DNA of 64,000 nucleotides from Pseudobdellovibrionaceae bacterium (GCA_019637875.1 JAHBUW010000008.1:62001-126000); one strand, 5' to 3'; shown: positions 430 to 9,466, numbered from the stretch's first letter. Translations and numbers: made by a program. The notes: generated by a model from the sequence alone, not told the origin.

Positions 430-1131
430 ATGCAAAGAATTTGGAACGAAACACTCATCTCCGCGGTCACCGAGGATGCGGAATTCCTCGGAGCCCTGGC
501 GAGTCAGGTGGAGTCCCACTTCCACCTCAAGGTTCATGACGGAGCTTCCGTCCGTGACGGAACCCTCAATGGCTGTGAACACTCTTTGATCGTCTGGGAC
601 CTGACGACCCTCGAGGCCAGCGAACTCGAAAAATTTCTTTGTGCCAATCCACAGGTTTTGCGCACATGTTCGCTGTTCTTGATCTGTGATCGTTCCACTT
701 TGGCGAGCGCGGCGCAGCTCACCGAAAAAGGTGCGATCGATTTCATCGTGAAGCCCGTCCAACCCGCGGAGCTCAACATCCGTTTGAAACTCGCCCGCCG
801 TCCCTGGGTGCGTGCGATGCGCACGACCTTTGATTTCCTTGGCTCGCTCCACGTGGAGTTCACCACGATGGAGCAAAGAATTCTTTTGTGCTTCTTGGCG
901 AGCCCCGATTTCGCGGCCTCGCGCGCGTCGATCAACGCAGAGCTTTGGAATTCAAGTTCCGTGAACTCAAACTCGCTGGACGTTCACCTCTTCAATATTC
1001 GACGCAAGATTGCGCCGACCGGCCTTGAAATTCGTTTTAATAATAAACGTGGCAGCTGGATTTTAACGACGAAAAACCCGCCCCACACGATGACCAGCGC
1101 AGCCGCGCACGGAGGACACCATGACTCGTAA
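430..1131 (+). CDS. OmpR/PhoB-like response regulator
   Basis: 233 residues in two domains. The N-terminal receiver-like domain (about 8-120) has an acidic pair E15-D16, a candidate phospho-acceptor D57 in VWDLTT and the conserved Lys-Pro K108-P109. The C-terminal domain (about 130-215) looks like a winged helix: the run SLDVHLFNIRRKI followed by the beta-hairpin NNKRGSWIL matches OmpR-type recognition helix and wing. It would be a cytoplasmic DNA-binding regulator. No histidine kinase gene is adjacent. The 3' end overlaps the next gene by 11 bases, suggesting co-translation. The start is ATG without a strong Shine-Dalgarno sequence. Target genes are unknown. Confidence 0.65.
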   Translation: MQRIWNETLISAVTEDAEFLGALASQVESHFHLKVHDGASVRDGTLNGCEHSLIVWDLTTLEASELEKFLCANPQVLRTCSLFLICDRSTLASAAQLTEKGAIDFIVKPVQPAELNIRLKLARRPWVRAMRTTFDFLGSLHVEFTTMEQRILLCFLASPDFAASRASINAELWNSSSVNSNSLDVHLFNIRRKIAPTGLEIRFNNKRGSWILTTKNPPHTMTSAAAHGGHHDS

Positions 1132-1438
1132 CGACGACTCTTCCCGTCCCGCCTTGCAGGTCTTAAAAGCCCGTGGCCGCATCAGCGACCTTCTGCGCGA
1201 AGGGCGTGTTCAAGCACAGCTTTCGCCCGAAACGGCGGCCGAGCTTTTGGAGATCAGCGTCCAAGATCTGCGCGATGCGGAGTCGGGACGCCTCGAGATC
1301 CCGCTGCAGCGAATTTTCGCGGCCGCGAATATCTACAACATCGATCCCTCCGCGATCATGGACGTCATCTCGGACATCCACACGGGAAACGCCGAATCGT
1401 CCGACGATCTCGAGCGCATCTCGAAAATCAAAATTTAA
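1121..1438 (+). CDS. XRE-like helix-turn-helix protein
   Basis: 105 residues. Residues about 20-75 (LLREGRVQAQLSPETAAELL, then ISVQDLRDAESGR and an IDPSAIMDVI segment) have the layout of a lambda-repressor/XRE HTH domain: a helix, the turn at LSPETAAELLEIS, the recognition helix, and an E-S-G-R segment. It starts inside the 3' end of the OmpR-like regulator, so the two are probably one transcript. Its stop overlaps the stop of the convergent gene on the other strand. It could be a small transcription factor or an accessory to the upstream regulator; ligands and targets cannot be seen. Confidence 0.55.
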   Translation: MTRNDDSSRPALQVLKARGRISDLLREGRVQAQLSPETAAELLEISVQDLRDAESGRLEIPLQRIFAAANIYNIDPSAIMDVISDIHTGNAESSDDLERISKIKI

Positions 1439-2178
1439 AGAATCAGGATGTCGGGACTCGGCGACGCGTCCCGCAGCAACGAGATGTGCCCCGTGCTGAC
1501 GAAGGCGCAGGTGCGTCCCGTCGACTTATCCAGAAGCGGTGACGCGTACTTCATCCGGAACAGCAGGCGACGATTGTGCTTCTGCAGTCGTTCCGTCATG
1601 ACGTACTCGGGAATATTGTAGGCGATGGTCTTCTGACCGGGTTCGAATAGCCTCGGCATCATGTCCCACAGCGTCTTCGCGACCCAGGACGGACGTTGAT
1701 AAAGCGTGTCCCAATCATAGAGCTTCAGTTCGAGCACCGAATAAGAACAGTGGCGATAGCAGGACCAGCTGCGGTAGAGCTGCACGCCCTGCTCGGAGTA
1801 GACCTCGATGATGTCATCCTCTTCGAAGTAGTCGCAGAAATCCGGATCGGCTAAATCCAGATCCGCTTTCTTGAGCGCCCACTTGAAACTCTGGATTTCC
1901 GCTTGGCGCGAAAAACTTTTGCGACCCGCCAGAACTTCGTTCGCGACGGCGGGAAAGCCCGCCGCCATGCTGGCCAAACGCCAGGAAAAACGCGCCTCCA
2001 GATCCACGAGATCCGCAAGAGTCATCGCGCTCATTTCGCGTTTCAACCATGCGATATCGCGGTTCGGCTCCAGTCCGAGCTTGCCTAGATAAGCGTCATA
2101 GGCTTGTGCCGACGTGCAAATGAGCTCATAGAGAGAGTTCCGCTGCCCGTCATTTTCCCGCGAAAATGCCAATTCCAT
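1435..2178 (-). CDS. Conserved-looking hypothetical cytoplasmic protein
   Basis: I do not recognise the family. The start is taken at the ATG for MELAFSREN (2176-2178); an upstream in-frame ATG at 2226 would add 16 residues of Cys/Trp-rich sequence that looks like leader. The 247-residue product has no signal peptide or membrane segment. The N-terminal half is helical (residues about 10-110). The C-terminal half contains alternating strands rich in Tyr, Trp and Cys (YRSWSCYRHCSYSVLELKLYDW), as in small sensory domains. It faces the ACAD-GNAT-HDO operon divergently, so a role in that operon's control is possible but only inference. Confidence 0.5.
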   Translation of the reverse strand: MELAFSRENDGQRNSLYELICTSAQAYDAYLGKLGLEPNRDIAWLKREMSAMTLADLVDLEARFSWRLASMAAGFPAVANEVLAGRKSFSRQAEIQSFKWALKKADLDLADPDFCDYFEEDDIIEVYSEQGVQLYRSWSCYRHCSYSVLELKLYDWDTLYQRPSWVAKTLWDMMPRLFEPGQKTIAYNIPEYVMTERLQKHNRRLLFRMKYASPLLDKSTGRTCAFVSTGHISLLRDASPSPDILIL

Positions 2179-2384: not shown

Positions 2385-3611
2385 TTGATTCCTCAAATGA
2401 GATATGCACCGAATGAAGATCTGAACTGGCTCTTGAATTTTGCAAAAACCACCTACCTTCCCACCGAAACCGATTCCCCACTCGCCCAAGAATTCCCGCA
2501 CGCCGCACATGAACTCGCGCACGCCGCGGGGCTTTTCGATCTCCCCTTGCCGCGCTCGATCGGCGGCAAAGAATTCGGCGTCACCGATCTCGCCTGGACG
2601 ATTCGTTACCTCAGTCGCTCTTCGCCCAGCGCCGCGGCCACGTTCATCGGAAATCTCTTGGGCCTTTCGGCCGTTCTGCTCTACGCGCCCGCTCCGCTCC
2701 GCGATTCGATCTTGAGTTCGCTCGATCGCGACCGGCTGGAGCTTTGGAGCTTCGCGATGACCGAGGCCGAAGCGGGGTCGGACCTCATGAACATCGCGAC
2801 CCGCGCGGTTCGCCAGAACAACGGCGGATTCATCTTAAGCGGCGAGAAGAACTTCATCACGAACGCGTCGTATTCGCGGCGTCTCTGCGTATTCGCGCGT
2901 GAGCTCGACGAAGCCGGGAACGATCACGGGATCTCCTGCTTTTTCGTCCCCGGGGATGCGCCCGGCCTGCGGCGCGGTCCCGTCATGAGCAAAACCGCCT
3001 GGCGCAAGGCCAACACCGGCACCTTGATCTTCCACGAGGTCGCGCTCGCGCCCGACGCCCGTTTGGGCGAGCCCGGGGCGGGCTTGCGCATCCTGACCCA
3101 CTGCCTGAATCGATCGAAAACCCTGCTCGGCGCCATGGGCGTCGGCATCGCCGACCGCGCCTTGGAACTCGTGACCGCGCGCCTCGAAGAGACCGAGCGA
3201 TTCGGAAAATCCCTGATCGACCAACCCGTGCTGCGCCACGAACTCGCGCGCCACCACACCGAAAACGAGGCCGCCTGGCTCATGACATTGAAAGCGGCGG
3301 CCACCTGGGATGCCGGCGCCGACGCCACCACGGAGTCCAGCCAGGCGAAGTGGATCTCGGGACGGACCTCCGCGAAAATCACGTCGGCGGCGGTCGAGTA
3401 TTTCGGCGCGCGCGGGCTTTTCAACGACTACGAAATCAGTCGGCTCTCGAACGACGCCAAAGCCGTCGAGATCGTCGAAGGCCCGAGCCTCGTGCAGGAA
3501 TTGCTCGTCGGTCGCGCGCTCCTCCCGAAAAGGAAAACCCCCGCCGCCACGGGCGCCGCGCCGAAAGGCGACTTCATTCTTCGCCCCAATGAGCTGAAGA
3601 AGGCGGTCTGA
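2385..3611 (+). CDS. Acyl-CoA dehydrogenase family flavoprotein, first gene of a three-gene operon
   Basis: A TTG start at 2385 is chosen because GGAGG lies five bases upstream; ORFs starting further 5' have no such site. The 408-residue product shows the ACAD layout: helical N-terminus, the FAD/substrate segment FAMTEAEAGSDLM, the GEKNFITNAS strand, and a C-terminal helical domain ending in EIVEGPSLVQELL, where the Glu before Gly (about residue 365) aligns with the catalytic base of medium-chain ACADs. It would desaturate an acyl thioester at alpha-beta using FAD. The acyl carrier may be CoA or ACP. It is followed after two bases by a GNAT-like gene and then a diiron-oxidase-like gene, which suggests a dedicated biosynthetic role rather than bulk beta-oxidation. 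Confidence 0.8.
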   Translation: MIPQMRYAPNEDLNWLLNFAKTTYLPTETDSPLAQEFPHAAHELAHAAGLFDLPLPRSIGGKEFGVTDLAWTIRYLSRSSPSAAATFIGNLLGLSAVLLYAPAPLRDSILSSLDRDRLELWSFAMTEAEAGSDLMNIATRAVRQNNGGFILSGEKNFITNASYSRRLCVFARELDEAGNDHGISCFFVPGDAPGLRRGPVMSKTAWRKANTGTLIFHEVALAPDARLGEPGAGLRILTHCLNRSKTLLGAMGVGIADRALELVTARLEETERFGKSLIDQPVLRHELARHHTENEAAWLMTLKAAATWDAGADATTESSQAKWISGRTSAKITSAAVEYFGARGLFNDYEISRLSNDAKAVEIVEGPSLVQELLVGRALLPKRKTPAATGAAPKGDFILRPNELKKAV

Positions 3612-3613
3612 TT

Positions 3614-4288
3614 TTGAAATCATCACTGCGACTGCGGCTGTTTCAGCCGCCGGTCCCCGACCGCGACGCCGCGGACTTCGGGATCGTCTACGACTTTTGG
3701 CGCGACTCCTGGAGCGACGTCTACCGCGAAATCGGCGGCACCTTCGATCCGGCGTCGGATAATCTGACCCGTCAGCACGAAGTGATCACGCTCATGGACG
3801 GCCGACGCCCGATCGCGATGGTGTGCCACCGCTTCGTGAACTTCAAGGACCCTTCGCTCTATGCCGACAGCTACTTCCATACGGGCTGGCCCCCTTTGGC
3901 GCTCAAGGCTCTCAAACGCAAGGCCGCGCAATTCGACGGGACCGGCGTGATCGGCAGTCAGATCATCGTCGCGAAGGATTGGCGCGCGCGGGATCTGAAG
4001 CTGGGCTTGAAGATGCTGATCTCGTTCGCCTCGTTTCAGCGCGTACGCGATCTCGGTGCGGCATTCACGATCGGGACGATCCGCGTGGATCGGGGCATGG
4101 ACAAGGTCTTCGAAGCCTGCGGGGCGCGGGTGCTCGCGCGCGGTCTTGAATACCACGGCGCGACCGTGGACCTCGTCTACTTCGCGCCGTCCGAAGCGCC
4201 GATCGTCATCCCTGAGACCGCGCGCGCGGACGTCGAGAAACTTTGGCACGATCTTCAAAACGAAACGAACCTGAGGAGAACCGGATGA
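3614..4288 (+). CDS. GNAT-like N-acyltransferase (putative)
   Basis: 224 residues from a TTG start two bases after the preceding stop. The N-terminus (FGIVYDFWRDSWSDVYREIGG) and the core strands around residues 60-160 (RPIAMVCHRFVNF, GVIGSQIIVAKDWRAR, GAAFTIGTIRVDRG) resemble the GNAT fold used by N-acyl amino-acid synthases and acyl-homoserine-lactone-like synthases. No exact acetyl-CoA P-loop Q/RxxGxG/A is present: DWRARDLKLGLKM occupies that place. The ATG of the next gene overlaps its stop as ATGA, so translation is coupled. Lying between an acyl-CoA dehydrogenase and a diiron protein, it could transfer an unsaturated acyl group to an amine. The substrate is unknown. Confidence 0.5.
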   Translation: MKSSLRLRLFQPPVPDRDAADFGIVYDFWRDSWSDVYREIGGTFDPASDNLTRQHEVITLMDGRRPIAMVCHRFVNFKDPSLYADSYFHTGWPPLALKALKRKAAQFDGTGVIGSQIIVAKDWRARDLKLGLKMLISFASFQRVRDLGAAFTIGTIRVDRGMDKVFEACGARVLARGLEYHGATVDLVYFAPSEAPIVIPETARADVEKLWHDLQNETNLRRTG

Positions 4289-4956
4289 AAGAACAAATTT
4301 GGGCCCGCATCGATCGACTGACGAAAACCATGGATACCGTCAACTGGGACGATCCGCAGATTTACGCGGCCTACATGGCGCAGACGTACTACTACGTCAG
4401 TCACTCCACGCGTCTGCTCGCGCTCGCCGCCGGCCTGCTGCCGCTGTCGGCCGGCCCCGCGCACCAGCGCTTCATCAAACACATCAGCGAGGAAAACCGG
4501 CACGAGGTCCTGGCCAGCCGGGACGTCACGGCGCTCGGTTACCGGGTCGAAGACTTCAAAGAGCTCGACACGGTGAAGGCCTTTTACCGTCTGCAGTACT
4601 ACATGATCCAGAACGTCTCGCCCTGGAGCCTACTGGGTTACATCGCGGCGCTGGAAGCCCTCGCGGTCCGCGGCGGTCCCGCGATTCACGAACGCGTCTG
4701 CCGTCGTCACGGCGAGAAAACGGGAAGTTTCCTGAAAGTCCACTCGGCAGAGGACGTCGAACACGTCGAGCAGGCCTTCGCCATGATCGAAAGCCTTCCC
4801 ACGGATGTTCAGGCCGCGGTGTGGGAGAATCTGGAGATGAGCTGCACGCTCTTCGAAGCCTTCTTGCGCGATCTGCCGCTCGCGTATCAGACCACCACGC
4901 TCGTCGCGGGCCAGGCCACCCCTCCGGCCGCCGAGGGAAAACGCAAGGCGGGATAA
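4285..4956 (+). CDS. Heme-oxygenase-like diiron oxidase (HDO) family protein
   Basis: 223 residues, almost all helical, starting at ATG 4285 with GAGGAG upstream and overlapping the previous stop by four bases. The sequence carries spaced metal ligands expected for the heme-oxygenase-like diiron superfamily (UndA, SznF, CADD and the related fold of PqqC/TenA): E70-x2-H73 in EENRHE, E124 in AALEALAV, then H153, D157 and H160 in KVHSAEDVEH. Such enzymes bind two irons and use O2 for oxidations of carboxylates, amines or N-acyl substrates. A ligandless heme oxygenase or TenA hydrolase is less likely given these residues. It is the last gene of the operon and is followed by a terminator hairpin. 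Confidence 0.7.
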   Translation: MKEQIWARIDRLTKTMDTVNWDDPQIYAAYMAQTYYYVSHSTRLLALAAGLLPLSAGPAHQRFIKHISEENRHEVLASRDVTALGYRVEDFKELDTVKAFYRLQYYMIQNVSPWSLLGYIAALEALAVRGGPAIHERVCRRHGEKTGSFLKVHSAEDVEHVEQAFAMIESLPTDVQAAVWENLEMSCTLFEAFLRDLPLAYQTTTLVAGQATPPAAEGKRKAG

Positions 4957-4961
4957 AGCAC

Positions 4962-4984
4962 GAAACCCGCCATGGGCGGGTTTC
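4962..4984. terminator. Bidirectional terminator hairpin after the ACAD-GNAT-HDO operon
   Basis: GAAACCCGCC, loop ATG, then GGCGGGTTTC gives a perfect 10-bp stem. It lies six bases after the stop of the diiron-protein gene. The stem ends in TTT on the plus strand and on the minus strand, so it could also end transcription of the small minus-strand gene that begins at 5150. Confidence 0.65.
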
Positions 4985-5030
4985 TGGGAGCCAAACGTCG
5001 CGGGAATCCGCGTTTGATTTAACGTCTGTT

Positions 5031-5150
5031 CTAACGTTTGTTCTTGTTTTTGAGCATGCGCTTTTTCTTCGCCAAGCGCTTGGTCTTGTGGCGAACGCTC
5101 TTGTTACGGGGTTTGCCAGTTTTCGCGCGTGCGGATTTTTTCTTCGCCAT
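5031..5150 (-). CDS. 39-residue highly basic protein
   Basis: A small ORF with ATG at 5148-5150 and AGGAG eight bases upstream, ending at TAG. The product has 14 Lys and 6 Arg among 39 residues, starts MAKKKSARAKTGKPRNK and ends KNKNKR, with no acidic residue and no hydrophobic segment. This composition fits a ribosome- or nucleic-acid-associated peptide, in the style of small ribosomal proteins or histone-like tails. No family match is claimed. The good ribosome site and clean stop argue that it is a real gene that length-filtered annotation would miss. Confidence 0.6.
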   Translation of the reverse strand: MAKKKSARAKTGKPRNKSVRHKTKRLAKKKRMLKNKNKR

Positions 5151-5291
5151 GAGGGCTCCTTTTTTTGCTGAAAGGCCGATGATTGCGGAGATTTACCCTG
5201 AGAGTCAAGGCCTGCGTCAAAGTCCGCCTTTCCCGGTGACAGCCCCCGGACTGCCAGTCATAGTGGCAGTCGCTTTTGAGAAGGGGGTCTC

Positions 5292-5948
5292 ATGACGCAA
5301 TTTCGTTCCATCTTTTTCAGCATCGGCCTTATTTTTGCCATTTTTTCGGGCGCTTCGGCTCACGCCGAAGTCATCGTCGTTGAACATGAGCTGCCGCCGC
5401 CGCAACTTCTGAACGCGGGCCAGTTGGATCCGATCGCTTCACGCAGCTTCCAGTACCGGGCGCAAGATCCCGCCGCGGTCTTGAACGCCACCGTCGCCAA
5501 ACTCAAAAGCGTTTTCCAACGCTACCGTCCCGTGGTGGATTCCGGCACGACCATCACGAAACCTCTCGTGGTGAGCGGCTCAGAGTCGAACCCCCGCTTG
5601 CAGATGAGCGCGAAAAAGTGCGTTCTTTTTATTTGCGAAACGGTGGACCTCGACGCCAGCGTCACGATCCGCGAGGTCAACGGCAACTGCACACGCAATT
5701 TTATCCTGACCGCGGATCTCGGTCGCTCGACGCAAAAACTGGTCGATAACTTTCGCGCCCTGAAGGTGAACATCTGCGCGCAGATCGCCGACGCCAGCGC
5801 GGACCTGCGCATCGACGCCTTCGCCGAACGGGGCGCCCGTTACGAATCGGGAACCATCACGAATGAGATTTTCAAGATCCTATCCGCCCAAATCCCGGCC
5901 ATGACAACCGCCCTCACCGAGAGTTTGAAGGCCAACGGAGCTCGCTAG
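5292..5948 (+). CDS. Secreted hypothetical protein
   Basis: 218 residues. ATG 5292 follows AAGGGGG. Residues 1-25 form a signal peptide (hydrophobic IFFSIGLIFAIFSG, cleavage near AHA-E). The mature part has a pair of short beta strands, a Cys-containing segment KKCVLFICETVDLDAS and two further cysteines (GNCTRN, VNICAQ), compatible with periplasmic disulfides. Helices at the end include LRIDAFAERGARY. I recognise no family. It stands alone upstream, and its stop overlaps the first of two small hairpins shared with the convergent gene. Confidence 0.6.
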   Translation: MTQFRSIFFSIGLIFAIFSGASAHAEVIVVEHELPPPQLLNAGQLDPIASRSFQYRAQDPAAVLNATVAKLKSVFQRYRPVVDSGTTITKPLVVSGSESNPRLQMSAKKCVLFICETVDLDASVTIREVNGNCTRNFILTADLGRSTQKLVDNFRALKVNICAQIADASADLRIDAFAERGARYESGTITNEIFKILSAQIPAMTTALTESLKANGAR

Positions 5949-5987
5949 GGCGAGCGGAGTCCATGGCGGCGGCTCGCTTAGGCGAGC
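5940..5987. terminator. Tandem pair of near-identical hairpins between convergent genes
   Basis: Two hairpins with identical 6-bp stems lie 16 bases apart: GCTCGC-TAGG-GCGAGC at 5940-5955 and GCTCGC-TTAG-GCGAGC at 5972-5987. The first overlaps the stop codon of the plus-strand gene, and the second sits just before the stop of the minus-strand gene. They probably act as a two-way transcription stop, although no T-tract follows. Confidence 0.5.
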
Positions 5988-5992
5988 GCTCG

Positions 5993-6580
5993 TTATTTGT
6001 GGCCTTTGTCCTGAAGCGAAGGGCCGCCGGTGTCCGAGGCGGGCTGCTTTTTCGGTTTGGGCTTCGCGCTCGCGTTCTCGACGCCATCGACATCGAGCAC
6101 CTGGCGCGAGATGGGGTCGGCGCGGAAAGACACGGTCGCGCCGCTTTTCATCGCCGCTTCGAACGGCTTGTAGCGACGGTTGTGCCAGTTGTCCTGCCGA
6201 ATGAAATAACTCTGATTCACGTCCGTAAAGAAAATCTCGGTCCCGTGATTGTCGCGTGCGAGGCGCGGGACACCCGTGACGGTCACGCCGGGAAGATCTT
6301 CAAAGTAGCGGGTCGGATCCACCGGAGCCGCTTCAACCGAAAAAGTCCCCAAACCGGCTTCCTGTTGGGCACGCTGGAGGTCCTCATCGGAACTCGGCAC
6401 GGCCGATCCCCCGCCGCGACGTGAGTTGGCGTTCGCGCCGTTCGGCGTGATGTAGAGCGACTCGGCCTCGGCTTTGGGGGCGGGCTCTTCGCCGCGAATG
6501 GGACGAAATACGGGTTTACGCGCCCAGAGAGTCGGCGCGATCAAACTCACCGCCAGAATTGAAGCTAGAATTCGAGGCAT
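5993..6580 (-). CDS. Secreted hypothetical protein with flexible tail
   Basis: 195 residues. The N-terminal signal peptide (MPRILASILAVSLIAPTLWA, cleavage near LWA-R) points to export. Residues about 25-80 are low complexity (Pro, Ala, Gly, Ser rich). A compact domain follows at about 85-165, including VTVTGVPRLARDNHGTEIFFTDVNQSYFIRQ and an F-RADPIS segment. The C-terminus is Lys/Pro rich. No family recognised. It probably folds as a small beta domain in the periplasm, which is inference only. Confidence 0.6.
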   Translation of the reverse strand: MPRILASILAVSLIAPTLWARKPVFRPIRGEEPAPKAEAESLYITPNGANANSRRGGGSAVPSSDEDLQRAQQEAGLGTFSVEAAPVDPTRYFEDLPGVTVTGVPRLARDNHGTEIFFTDVNQSYFIRQDNWHNRRYKPFEAAMKSGATVSFRADPISRQVLDVDGVENASAKPKPKKQPASDTGGPSLQDKGHK

Positions 6581-6685
6581 GTCCTATTCTCACACGCGAA
6601 CCGCAGGCCCACAAGGCGGAGGCACGCCCTTCCTTGACGTACGCCCCGGTTTCCTTTGATATGGCGGCACTGAAGGAAGTTGTTT

Positions 6686-8470
6686 TTGCGAATTCTGCAC
6701 GCGTTGTCTCAGACTGAACTCACCGGCTCGGAAGCCTATGCTTTCGACCTGGCTTCGCACCAAACGCGCGAGGGTCACGCGACGCTGACCCTTTCCGATC
6801 GTTTTCACCTGAATTTTCCCGGCGAAAAGCTGAGCCTGGAGCTGTCCACCGATTCGTTCTGGACCCGCATGGCGAATATCCGCCGGATCCGTCGTCTTTT
6901 GATCGAAAAAAAAATCGATGTGATTCACGCGCACTCGCGCGGCGCTTGTCGGCATGTGTACTGGGCCGCGAGGGGTCTGCGGATCCCGATCCTGACGACC
7001 ATTCACGGCTACCAGCACTCTTCGCTTTCGAAACGACTTTTCCACATCTATGGGGATTACATTCTTGCGGTGTGTGAAAAGATTCGCGACCAGATGATTC
7101 GCGATTTGCGAACGAAGCCTTACGCGATCGAGGTGCTACGCAATCCCGTCGCGCCGCGGGGAGTTTTACCCGCGCATCTTCCCGCCGCGATTCCCGGGCG
7201 CATCCTGCTCGCCGGACGGAGCAGCGGCCCCAAAGGACGTCGTCTGCGCGCCATCTTCCGCGAACTCGCGCGCGGTCCGCTTCCGGCTGGCACGACGGTC
7301 CATTTGGTCCTCAGCGGACTCGAAAGCAAAGAACGTGAACGCCTGAAAGAAGAGTGGCCCGAGGCGCTCGTCGAAGGGCATTTACCCTCGCTGCAAACCG
7401 CGATCGCGCAAAGCACGATCGTCTTGGCTTCGGGGCGAATCGCGCTCGAAGCGCTCGCGCAGGGCCGACGCGTTTTCGCCTTGGGCGAAGCCTCGCAACC
7501 GGGTTTCCTGACGTCGCAATCGGAGACCGAAATCCTGGCCTCGAACTTCGGCGACGTCGGACCGGAAGACGATTTGGATTTGCCGACGATCGTTCGCGAC
7601 CTCTGCGCCGAACTGGAGCGGCCTTCGCCGCAAAACGCCGAAAACATCTTGGCACATTTCGCCTCGGAAAAAATTCTGAACCGCGTGATCGATCTTTACC
7701 GTGGGCTGCGCCTTTTCAAGCGCACCCGCTCTTTGCCGATCCTGATGTACCACAAGGTCGTCGACACCGCGCCCGAGACGCCCCACCGCACTTTCGTCAC
7801 CACCGAGACCTTCCGTAAACACATCGCCTTTTTCAAACGTGGCGGCTACTCGACGTTGCATTTTCGCGACCTCGCGGATTTCTGGTGGGAGCGACGACCG
7901 CTCGTCGAGTTTCCGAAACGTCCGCTCCTGCTGACGTTCGACGACGGCTACCGCAACAATCTAGAGAAGGCCGCGCCGCTGCTCGCCGAGGCGGGACTAA
8001 AAGCCGAGATTTTTCTGCTCGCCGATGCGGACATCCAACGCAACCACTGGGATCCGGATGAAGGCGACGAGTCCTCAGCGATCATGACCCTCGAAGAAAA
8101 GAAGCGACTTCCCCGCCCGACCTACGCCATCGGCAGTCACGGACTGAGCCACCGCGCGTTTCCGGATCTCAGCGAAGCGGAAGTTTTGCGTGAGCTCAAG
8201 GTCTCGAAAGAAAAGCTCGAAAGCGATTTCGGGCAAAAAGTCTGTTCGGTGGCTTATCCCTTCGGGGCCATCGATGGGCGTTTGCCGGAACTGGCACGCG
8301 AAGCGGGATATGATTTCGCCGTGAACACGGATCAGGGGCCGGTCTATTGGTTTACCGAACCGCGATCACTGTTTCGGGTGAATGTCTTCCCCGAGGACGG
8401 CGTGTTTAGTCTTTGGAAGAAAACTTCGAGTTGGTATCGCGAGTACTACTTCCGCAAACGTGGACGCTGA
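6686..8470 (+). CDS. Glycosyltransferase (GT4-like) fused to polysaccharide deacetylase (NodB-like)
   Basis: The TTG at 6686 is taken as start because AAGGAAG lies six bases upstream and it gives the typical opening MRILHALSQTELTGSE of GT4 enzymes. In the 594-residue product, residues about 1-340 carry the GT-B layout (IDVIHAHSRGACRHVYWAARG, a TTIHGYQ segment, and a degraded C-lobe with SGRIALEALAQGRRV). Residues about 350-590 form a NodB deacetylase domain with MYHKVV, TFDDGY (about 416-421), SHGLSH (metal-binding H-x3-H region) and AYPFGA. It would build or trim an N-acetylated surface polysaccharide. No signal peptide is visible, so the deacetylase half appears cytoplasmic. Its stop abuts the stop of the convergent gene. 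Confidence 0.8.
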   Translation: MRILHALSQTELTGSEAYAFDLASHQTREGHATLTLSDRFHLNFPGEKLSLELSTDSFWTRMANIRRIRRLLIEKKIDVIHAHSRGACRHVYWAARGLRIPILTTIHGYQHSSLSKRLFHIYGDYILAVCEKIRDQMIRDLRTKPYAIEVLRNPVAPRGVLPAHLPAAIPGRILLAGRSSGPKGRRLRAIFRELARGPLPAGTTVHLVLSGLESKERERLKEEWPEALVEGHLPSLQTAIAQSTIVLASGRIALEALAQGRRVFALGEASQPGFLTSQSETEILASNFGDVGPEDDLDLPTIVRDLCAELERPSPQNAENILAHFASEKILNRVIDLYRGLRLFKRTRSLPILMYHKVVDTAPETPHRTFVTTETFRKHIAFFKRGGYSTLHFRDLADFWWERRPLVEFPKRPLLLTFDDGYRNNLEKAAPLLAEAGLKAEIFLLADADIQRNHWDPDEGDESSAIMTLEEKKRLPRPTYAIGSHGLSHRAFPDLSEAEVLRELKVSKEKLESDFGQKVCSVAYPFGAIDGRLPELAREAGYDFAVNTDQGPVYWFTEPRSLFRVNVFPEDGVFSLWKKTSSWYREYYFRKRGR

Positions 8471-9466
8471 TCAGGGTTGATAGGCGCAACGGAAGCCGAT
8501 GTAATCCTGGATGGTGTCTGCGGCGAACGCCTCAACCGTGTAGGCGTCCCAGCGGGTATCGTTCGCTTCTCCGCCACGGGTCATATAGGCATCACCGTTC
8601 GCCCCCACATAATAACCGAGACCGCAATTGTTGACGTTCGTATCGTCGCCCACGCCGCAGCCGGAACCGTAGTCGTCGAACAAGGGGCCATGAGCGGTTC
8701 GGTCCGTCGCGCTCATTTTGTTGAAGCCCCCGTTCGTTCGCGAGCCCATGCGAAAGTTCGCGGATGTGGTGTTGTTCGTCGTCGTATAACTTCCCATCAC
8801 CCACTCGCTGACGTTCCCGTTCAAGTGCCAGATCTGTTCGCCGTTCGAGAAGCTGAATCTCGCTTTCACGTTCGCTTCGCCGGATTCGTGTAAGGCCCCA
8901 TCGTAGCTACAGTTTCCGTTGTAGTTGACGTTTCCGGTAAAAATACAACCCACGCCGCGCGTGCCGCCCGACCAATTCGCGTTGACCGATTCGACGTTTC
9001 TCATCATCCCGGTCCATTGATCCTTCGTCACCAAGCTGTAGCCCGCGCCCATGTTCGTGCAAGCCGTCACCGCGTCGGCCCGCGTGATGTTCACGCGCGG
9101 CGCGCCCGTCGAGGTCGCGACGGCCGTCCCGCTCGAGACCCGCGCTTCCCATTTCATCACGCAAAACTCGGGCAAACTTTTACTGGGACTTTCCGGCACG
9201 AGAACGAAACCCGTCGGACAGCAAGTCGAAGCGGAAATTCCGACCGCGGCCGGGATGTGCTCCACGAACGAGACCCATTCGGCTTTTGTTTTCGTGGGCA
9301 CGAAGACGTCCCGTGAACCCGAGTTCGAAAGACGACGGCAGACGGAGTGCTCTTTGACCACGACGTTGCTCGCTCCGACGGCGATACGGTAGGAATCCGC
9401 CGCCCACGCCGGAGCGCTCGCGATTCCGACACCGACCAGGCTCGCAATGAAGAAACGTTCAATCAT
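8471..9466 (-). CDS. Secreted formylglycine-generating-enzyme-like (SUMF1 fold) protein
   Basis: The start is ATG 9464-9466 (MIERFFIASLVGVG) with GGGAG upstream; it yields a signal peptide cleaved near AWA-A. The mature protein (about 310 residues) has the SUMF1/FGE-like module: a DAVTACTNMGAGYSLVTKDQW segment, LNGNVSEWV (the family's hallmark NGNVWEW motif) and the C-terminal IGFRCAYQ (equivalent to the usual GFR ending). Family members oxidise cysteine to formylglycine or are non-catalytic ligand-binding modules. Several cysteines are present, but the true FGE active-site pair cannot be assigned by eye, so a structural or binding role is equally likely. Confidence 0.7.
   Translation of the reverse strand: MIERFFIASLVGVGIASAPAWAADSYRIAVGASNVVVKEHSVCRRLSNSGSRDVFVPTKTKAEWVSFVEHIPAAVGISASTCCPTGFVLVPESPSKSLPEFCVMKWEARVSSGTAVATSTGAPRVNITRADAVTACTNMGAGYSLVTKDQWTGMMRNVESVNANWSGGTRGVGCIFTGNVNYNGNCSYDGALHESGEANVKARFSFSNGEQIWHLNGNVSEWVMGSYTTTNNTTSANFRMGSRTNGGFNKMSATDRTAHGPLFDDYGSGCGVGDDTNVNNCGLGYYVGANGDAYMTRGGEANDTRWDAYTVEAFAADTIQDYIGFRCAYQP

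Follow-up and report, generated by a model that had tools for sequence, protein, structure and literature searches.

The locus considered here raises the question of what a short operon coding for an acyl-CoA dehydrogenase (ACAD), a GNAT-like acyltransferase (GN) and a heme-oxygenase-like diiron protein (HDO) could be making, and which of the surrounding genes belong with it. It lies near the start of the window, by which I mean the whole stretch of 64,000 nucleotides from a Pseudobdellovibrionaceae bacterium that was analysed. The reading that I favour, with a probability of roughly 0.55, is that of a synthase-oxidase-receptor cassette, in which an oxidised N-acyl small molecule would be made and then sensed by the neighbouring receptor, so that the producing organism would probably respond to its own product. 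The genes and sites concerned are the following.

1121-1438 (+): regulator of the XRE (Cro/C1) type with a helix-turn-helix, 105 aa (HTH_3, 4.2e-5)
1435-2178 (-): T3, putative receptor of 247 residues, from the AlphaFold model and its fold matches
2179-2384 (no strand): divergent promoter region between T3 and the operon, from the gene layout
2385-3611 (+): ACAD reading frame, TTG start with AGGAGG ahead of it
3614-4288 (+): GN reading frame (gene 2), TTG start, 2-base gap after ACAD
4285-4956 (+): HDO reading frame (gene 3), ATGA overlap with GN, GAGGAG ahead of it
4962-4984 (no strand): 10-bp hairpin, possible bidirectional terminator, from its folding and its position between convergent genes

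Gene arrangement and the conserved unit

In the initial annotation the three genes were taken as one tightly packed unit closed by a terminator. The packing is borne out by the reading frames, with both the 2-base gap and the ATGA overlap in place, and the genes form an operon. As an evolutionary unit, however, the trio does not hold, as the genes at 1121-2178 belong to it and ACAD is usually absent; judged by the unit kept in relatives, the boundaries were drawn too narrow upstream and too wide at ACAD. Overlooked were a PAS sensor, a Cro/C1 regulator and a C-terminal tail shared by the enzymes. The hairpin at 4962-4984 is present (-18.6 kcal/mol, z -2.06), flanked by the convergent genes for HDO (+) and for a basic open reading frame of 39 residues (5031-5150, -), but as a terminator it is weak. 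Its own stem apart, the + strand lacks a T tract there, and the scan returned 6 terminator-like sites against 5.6 in shuffled sequences, i.e. no excess, so that a strong + strand terminator at the end of the operon is not supported. The small convergent reading frame codes for an extremely basic product (MAKKKSARAKTGKPRNKSVRHKTKRLAKKKRMLKNKNKR). At the opposite side, directly 5' of the XRE gene, lies the gene of a response-regulator-like protein (430-1131, +) with a winged-helix output and a degenerate receiver, the latter giving a weak Response_reg match.

Separate searches of 60 related genomes were made for GN and for HDO, with HDO counted as paired within 1.5 kb and T3 within 3 kb. HDO lies within 1.5 kb of 44 of the 55 GN genes, 40 times on the same strand, and GN is found beside 43 of the 48 strong HDO places. 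A T3 homologue is present within 3 kb of 47 of these 55 GN genes. The core consists of GN and HDO, and the conserved unit is this pair plus the sensor, instead of ACAD-GN-HDO. A gene-neighbourhood search for the three families, proposed at the outset as a check, strongly upholds the association of GN with HDO and fails for ACAD, which adjoins them in only 4 of about 130 loci (the window, L061, L063 and L132); for this reason the three enzymes were rejected as a fixed trio. Gene order and strand differ from locus to locus, and because they vary in this way across the phylum, the linkage of GN, HDO and the sensor points to maintenance by function, beyond vertical inheritance of a block. The GN family occurs in 107 of the 291 sampled Bdellovibrionota genomes, including families outside the class, and T3-GN-HDO is present in a genome of Bdellovibrio itself (G036).

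ACADs are mostly enzymes of beta-oxidation, and GNATs and proteins of the HDO fold are common, all of which would suit an ordinary operon for the catabolism or detoxification of fatty acids or amines, with no role in signalling or specialised metabolism. However, ACAD is not a conserved member, and the linkage of GN, HDO and the sensor extends through the phylum despite the shuffled order and strand. I consider such an operon very unlikely.

The identity of ACAD is solid (PF00441 1e-31, PF02770 1.6e-23 and PF02771 in Pfam), with the N-terminal, middle and C-terminal domains all present and with Glu retained at the catalytic position of the MCAD type (IVEG motif). As all four ACADs of these loci retain the catalytic Glu (I-x-EG motif), ACAD is probably a working accessory enzyme, outside the core. 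In comparable positions other loci carry desaturases of the PF00487 type (19 genes, against 4 for ACAD), FAD_binding_4 oxidases, a DAO-type flavoprotein and methyltransferases. In some loci FAD_binding_4 enzymes stand in for HDO, and in L148 a GN domain and a FAD_binding_4 oxidase form one polypeptide (6565-8877), with a histidine kinase gene nearby (4552-5958). The swapped tailoring and oxidase genes, together with this fusion, suggest that the product of GN or its acyl donor undergoes oxidation, and that the oxidase is exchangeable between loci.

In Methylocystis (Alphaproteobacteria; L183 and L188) GN and HDO occur without T3, and the HDO tails there read RAA or KRAA; lateral transfer is the probable origin of this pair. 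A contig labelled as a MAG of Streptomyces griseus (L221), which holds an HDO fragment, XRE and T3, is probably a mis-binned contig from the Bdellovibrionota and was left out of the host range.

The synthase and the oxidase

The description of gene 2 as GNAT-like finds no support in sequence searches, but strong support in structure. GN gave no match in Pfam, NCBIfam or the PDB as a single sequence, nor did it as a profile of 39 members, and a scan of the genome contigs with GN as a single protein found nothing. The AlphaFold model (pLDDT 93.7), in contrast, has its best match in the AHL synthase RpaI (Foldseek E 3.3e-7; Z 16.0, rmsd 3.2 over 193 residues), and BjaI (Z 14.9), FeeM (2g0b, Z 14.0), EsaI and LasI are also among the best matches. 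Structure prediction, suggested initially as a way to check gene 2, shows in this model the fold of a GNAT acyltransferase and not an unrelated one. Ordinary GNATs (arylalkylamine N-acetyltransferases, ElaA) score within 1 to 2 Z units of the top matches, and the model favours, but does not prove, a place of GN in the branch of the long-chain acyl synthases. Near-invariant in the family are W29, W33, R53, R157 and G170.

As the structure search puts AHL synthases first, over GN residues 5-222, and as one member of the T3 family gives a marginal match to Autoind_bind (0.012), GN could be taken for a genuine AHL synthase too diverged for the family model, working in LuxI-like quorum sensing with a receptor other than LuxR. 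However, GN does not match PF00765, and the search for canonical LuxI found none above the cut-off in the 60 relatives. Moreover, the profile comparison with one LuxI from a Methylocystis genome gave E 0.17 and no meaningful alignment, so that the SAM and catalytic motifs (Arg, Glu, Arg) could not be placed residue by residue, whereas the comparison of GN with FeeM-type sequences does align (profile-profile E 2.4e-5, probability 75%, 99 columns). A true AHL synthase is thus improbable, and strict LuxI membership was rejected on the missing PF00765 match and the E value of 0.17. The LuxI-type synthases (RpaI, BjaI, EsaI, LasI) are alike in the predicted fold of nearly the whole chain and in having the synthase gene beside a sensor gene; the locus is unlike theirs in that the usual partner of GN is an oxidase and the candidate receptor has a PAS fold, not that of LuxR. 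The FeeM-type N-acyl amino acid synthases (PF21926) are alike in fold and, more tentatively, in the profile alignment, although PF21926 is matched neither by GN as a single sequence nor among the 39 members of its profile.

HDO is a predicted heme-oxygenase-like diiron oxidase, with a match to PF14518 (E 3.9e-14, 53.3 bits against a cut-off of 28.9) and the full set of three histidine and three carboxylate ligands (E70, H73, E124, H153, D157 and H160). These six residues, already named in the initial annotation, are conserved at 97-100% in 97 homologous sequences, and none is missing on alignment. The same ligand set is that of most HDOs, a group whose chemistry is under rapidly growing study, with about a dozen activities known and with fatty acids and amino acids as the main substrates so far (PMC13108848). 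Among solved chains, a profile search places the uncharacterised 3dde nearest (1.9e-19), followed by MboA, which is an acetylenase (PMC13185094); chains of 4-aminobenzoate synthase were matched as well. UndA, BesC, MboA and CADD (PMC13108848, PMC13185094) share PF14518 and the ligands with HDO, whereas none of the characterised HDOs in PMC13108848 is described together with a GNAT synthase and a PAS sensor.

FeeM-type genes adjoin HDO genes as well, both in the source genome and in a zetaproteobacterium. In the source genome, a second HDO lies beside a PilZ-FeeM synthase and a GAF-adenylate cyclase (L254, 5088-9555; contig C9 of genome G000, at about 50-54.5 kb). This layout is repeated in L256 and L257, L255 has FeeM and HDO only, and in the zetaproteobacterium HDO, a FeeM synthase and a LuxR-type regulator stand in a row. 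Three distinct combinations of an N-acyl synthase, an HDO and a sensor or regulator would be hard to explain by chance. A precedent for an N-acyl-amino acid synthase with an O2-dependent desaturase is the tyz cluster of Mycobacterium, in which TyzA (N-acyl-Tyr synthase) and TyzB (cyclase) are accompanied by TyzC, a flavin oxidase dedicated to the product of the synthase (PMC10404671). The tyz oxidase, however, is a flavoprotein of the nitroreductase family, and the locus has a sensor pair and no ThiF-type cyclase. That the product of the locus is an oxidised N-acyl molecule I regard as likely.

Sensor, regulator and the fate of the product

The T3 gene is convergent with the XRE gene, their ends overlapping, and its reading frame is open up to 2226, with the ATG at 2178 as the likelier start. 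A Pfam search with T3 gave no match. The model (pLDDT 84.4) consists of a helical N-terminal part and a C-terminal PAS fold (residues ~119-236), and the fold matches are uniformly PAS/LOV, with a Foldseek E of 4.6e-4 to the PAS-B domain of HIF2a and Z values against LOV/PAS-B domains that are modest, up to 8.9 over 115 residues. A PAS domain may bind any of a wide range of ligands or no ligand at all, which weakens the case for T3 as a receptor. Most of these loci are adjoined by a member of the XRE family, usually beside T3; in most loci of the genus Bdellovibrio XRE homologues are absent or distant, and lineages devoid of T3 often have a membrane histidine kinase (HisKA/HATPase_c) encoded next to the locus. 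The region before the operon contains neither inverted repeats or 8-mers clearly above shuffled sequences nor a shared operator motif.

A sensor together with a synthase is the usual layout of signal circuits, and because the synthase constantly adjoins a sensor gene, a kinase, a GAF cyclase or a LuxR-type regulator, the locus may be read as such a circuit. A signal had been named initially as a possible product; this is plausible, since the PAS sensor, the Cro/C1 regulator and the shared tail point to signalling. N-acyl amino acid synthases, on the other hand, also yield surfactants, antibiotics and membrane lipids. The product could accordingly be no signal but a lipid, namely an oxidised N-acyl amino acid that serves as membrane aminolipid, as surfactant or as antibiotic; T3 and XRE, or the histidine kinase, would then only regulate its production in answer to something else, e.g. 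redox changes or stress of the envelope. Most PAS matches of T3 are indeed generic, including LOV and redox domains, many T3 copies stand apart from any synthase (32 of the 81 in the 60 related genomes are away from GN and HDO), and tyrazolone is such a lipid, with no receptor known (PMC10404671). However, the constant partner is one cytosolic sensor gene or, in sister arrangements, a membrane kinase, a GAF cyclase or a LuxR-type regulator, and no conserved exporter, transporter or membrane-lipid gene was found beside the GN-HDO pair. The lipid is in my view a doubtful alternative; that the product is sensed by the neighbouring T3 has slightly better than even odds.

The biosynthetic set first proposed (acyl activation or tailoring, acyl transfer and O2-dependent oxidation) is supported, as are the GNAT fold and the diiron ligands. 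In a synthase-oxidase-receptor cassette, GN would use acyl-CoA or acyl-ACP as donor and acylate the amine of an acceptor that resembles an amino acid; judging by the sequence, this acceptor would not be SAM as in LuxI. With its diiron centre and O2, HDO would oxidise the N-acyl product by desaturation, oxidative decarboxylation or N-oxygenation. ACAD may come first in this lineage, desaturating the acyl chain at the 2,3 position, a tailoring step that membrane desaturases would supply elsewhere. T3 would sense the product and, together with the Cro/C1 regulator encoded next to it, control both the locus and further genes; in other lineages the membrane histidine kinase would take its place.

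A cassette of this kind can be likened to a quorum-sensing system built from different parts, and it links HDO chemistry to N-acyl synthases. A literature search returned no description on point of an AHL synthase, an autoinducer or an HDO pairing in Bdellovibrio. Tentatively, these loci might represent an undescribed form of signalling in the Bdellovibrionota, made up of a LuxI-fold synthase and a diiron oxidase, a PAS receptor or kinase, and co-tagged enzymes that would be degraded or docked together. With a conserved synthase-receptor locus, small-molecule talk among predators, for example in the timing of growth and release inside prey, would become directly testable.

Three Bdellovibrio genomes (G006, G033 and G036) carry six T3-family sensors each, five of them apart from GN and HDO, a set of orphan PAS proteins expanded specifically in this lineage. 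Each of these genomes also has one solitary second GN.

The shared C-terminal tail

The GN and HDO families have in common a C-terminal tail, [KR][KR]-A-A-COO-. The last residue is Ala in 74% of GN and 70% of HDO proteins, against 6% of the other proteins of the same loci. By a simple rule the tail is present in 78/104 GN, 68/98 HDO, 13/19 desaturases and 3/4 ACADs, i.e. at frequencies of 69-75%, against 3.5% of the neighbours (35/990 others); XRE has it in 3/57 cases, and T3 never (0/83). It is also found on methyltransferases (L157, L087), FAD oxidases (L145, L147) and a DAO-type oxidoreductase (L074). The tails of GN and HDO co-vary per locus (odds ratio 6.5, p 0.001, the p value being optimistic as the loci are related), and FeeM and HDO of the second cassette in the source genome lack the [KR][KR]-A-A tail. 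The window proteins carry the following forms, none of which has the C-terminal Ala-Ala.

3594-3608 (+): ACAD tail L-K-K-A-V, the form of the shared [KR][KR]-A-A tail in the window
4274-4285 (+): GN tail R-R-T-G, degenerate form of the shared tail
4942-4953 (+): HDO tail R-K-A-G, degenerate form of the shared tail

Ala-Ala-COO- is a ClpXP signal (PMC7142297), and aldehyde decarbonylases have a related C-terminal degron (PMC7325246); the tmRNA tag of the source genome is GNDYALAA. In ending with Ala-Ala, as do the ssrA tag and the degrons of sigma-AntA (PMC7142297) and the aldehyde decarbonylases, the shared tail resembles a common degron, and by analogy it would probably keep the enzymes short-lived. 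It is unlike these degrons in the basic residues before the alanines, in being common to many unrelated enzymes and in the degenerate copies of the window. Because their own tails are degenerate (KKAV, RRTG, RKAG), a degron role in the window proteins is uncertain, the alternative being docking to a common partner. That no fewer than four unrelated enzyme families carry one tail is an uncommon hint that turnover or assembly of the enzymes is co-regulated. A second class of tails, with acidic or hydrophobic ends (e.g. in L066, L082 and L084), likewise co-occurs in the GN and HDO of one locus.
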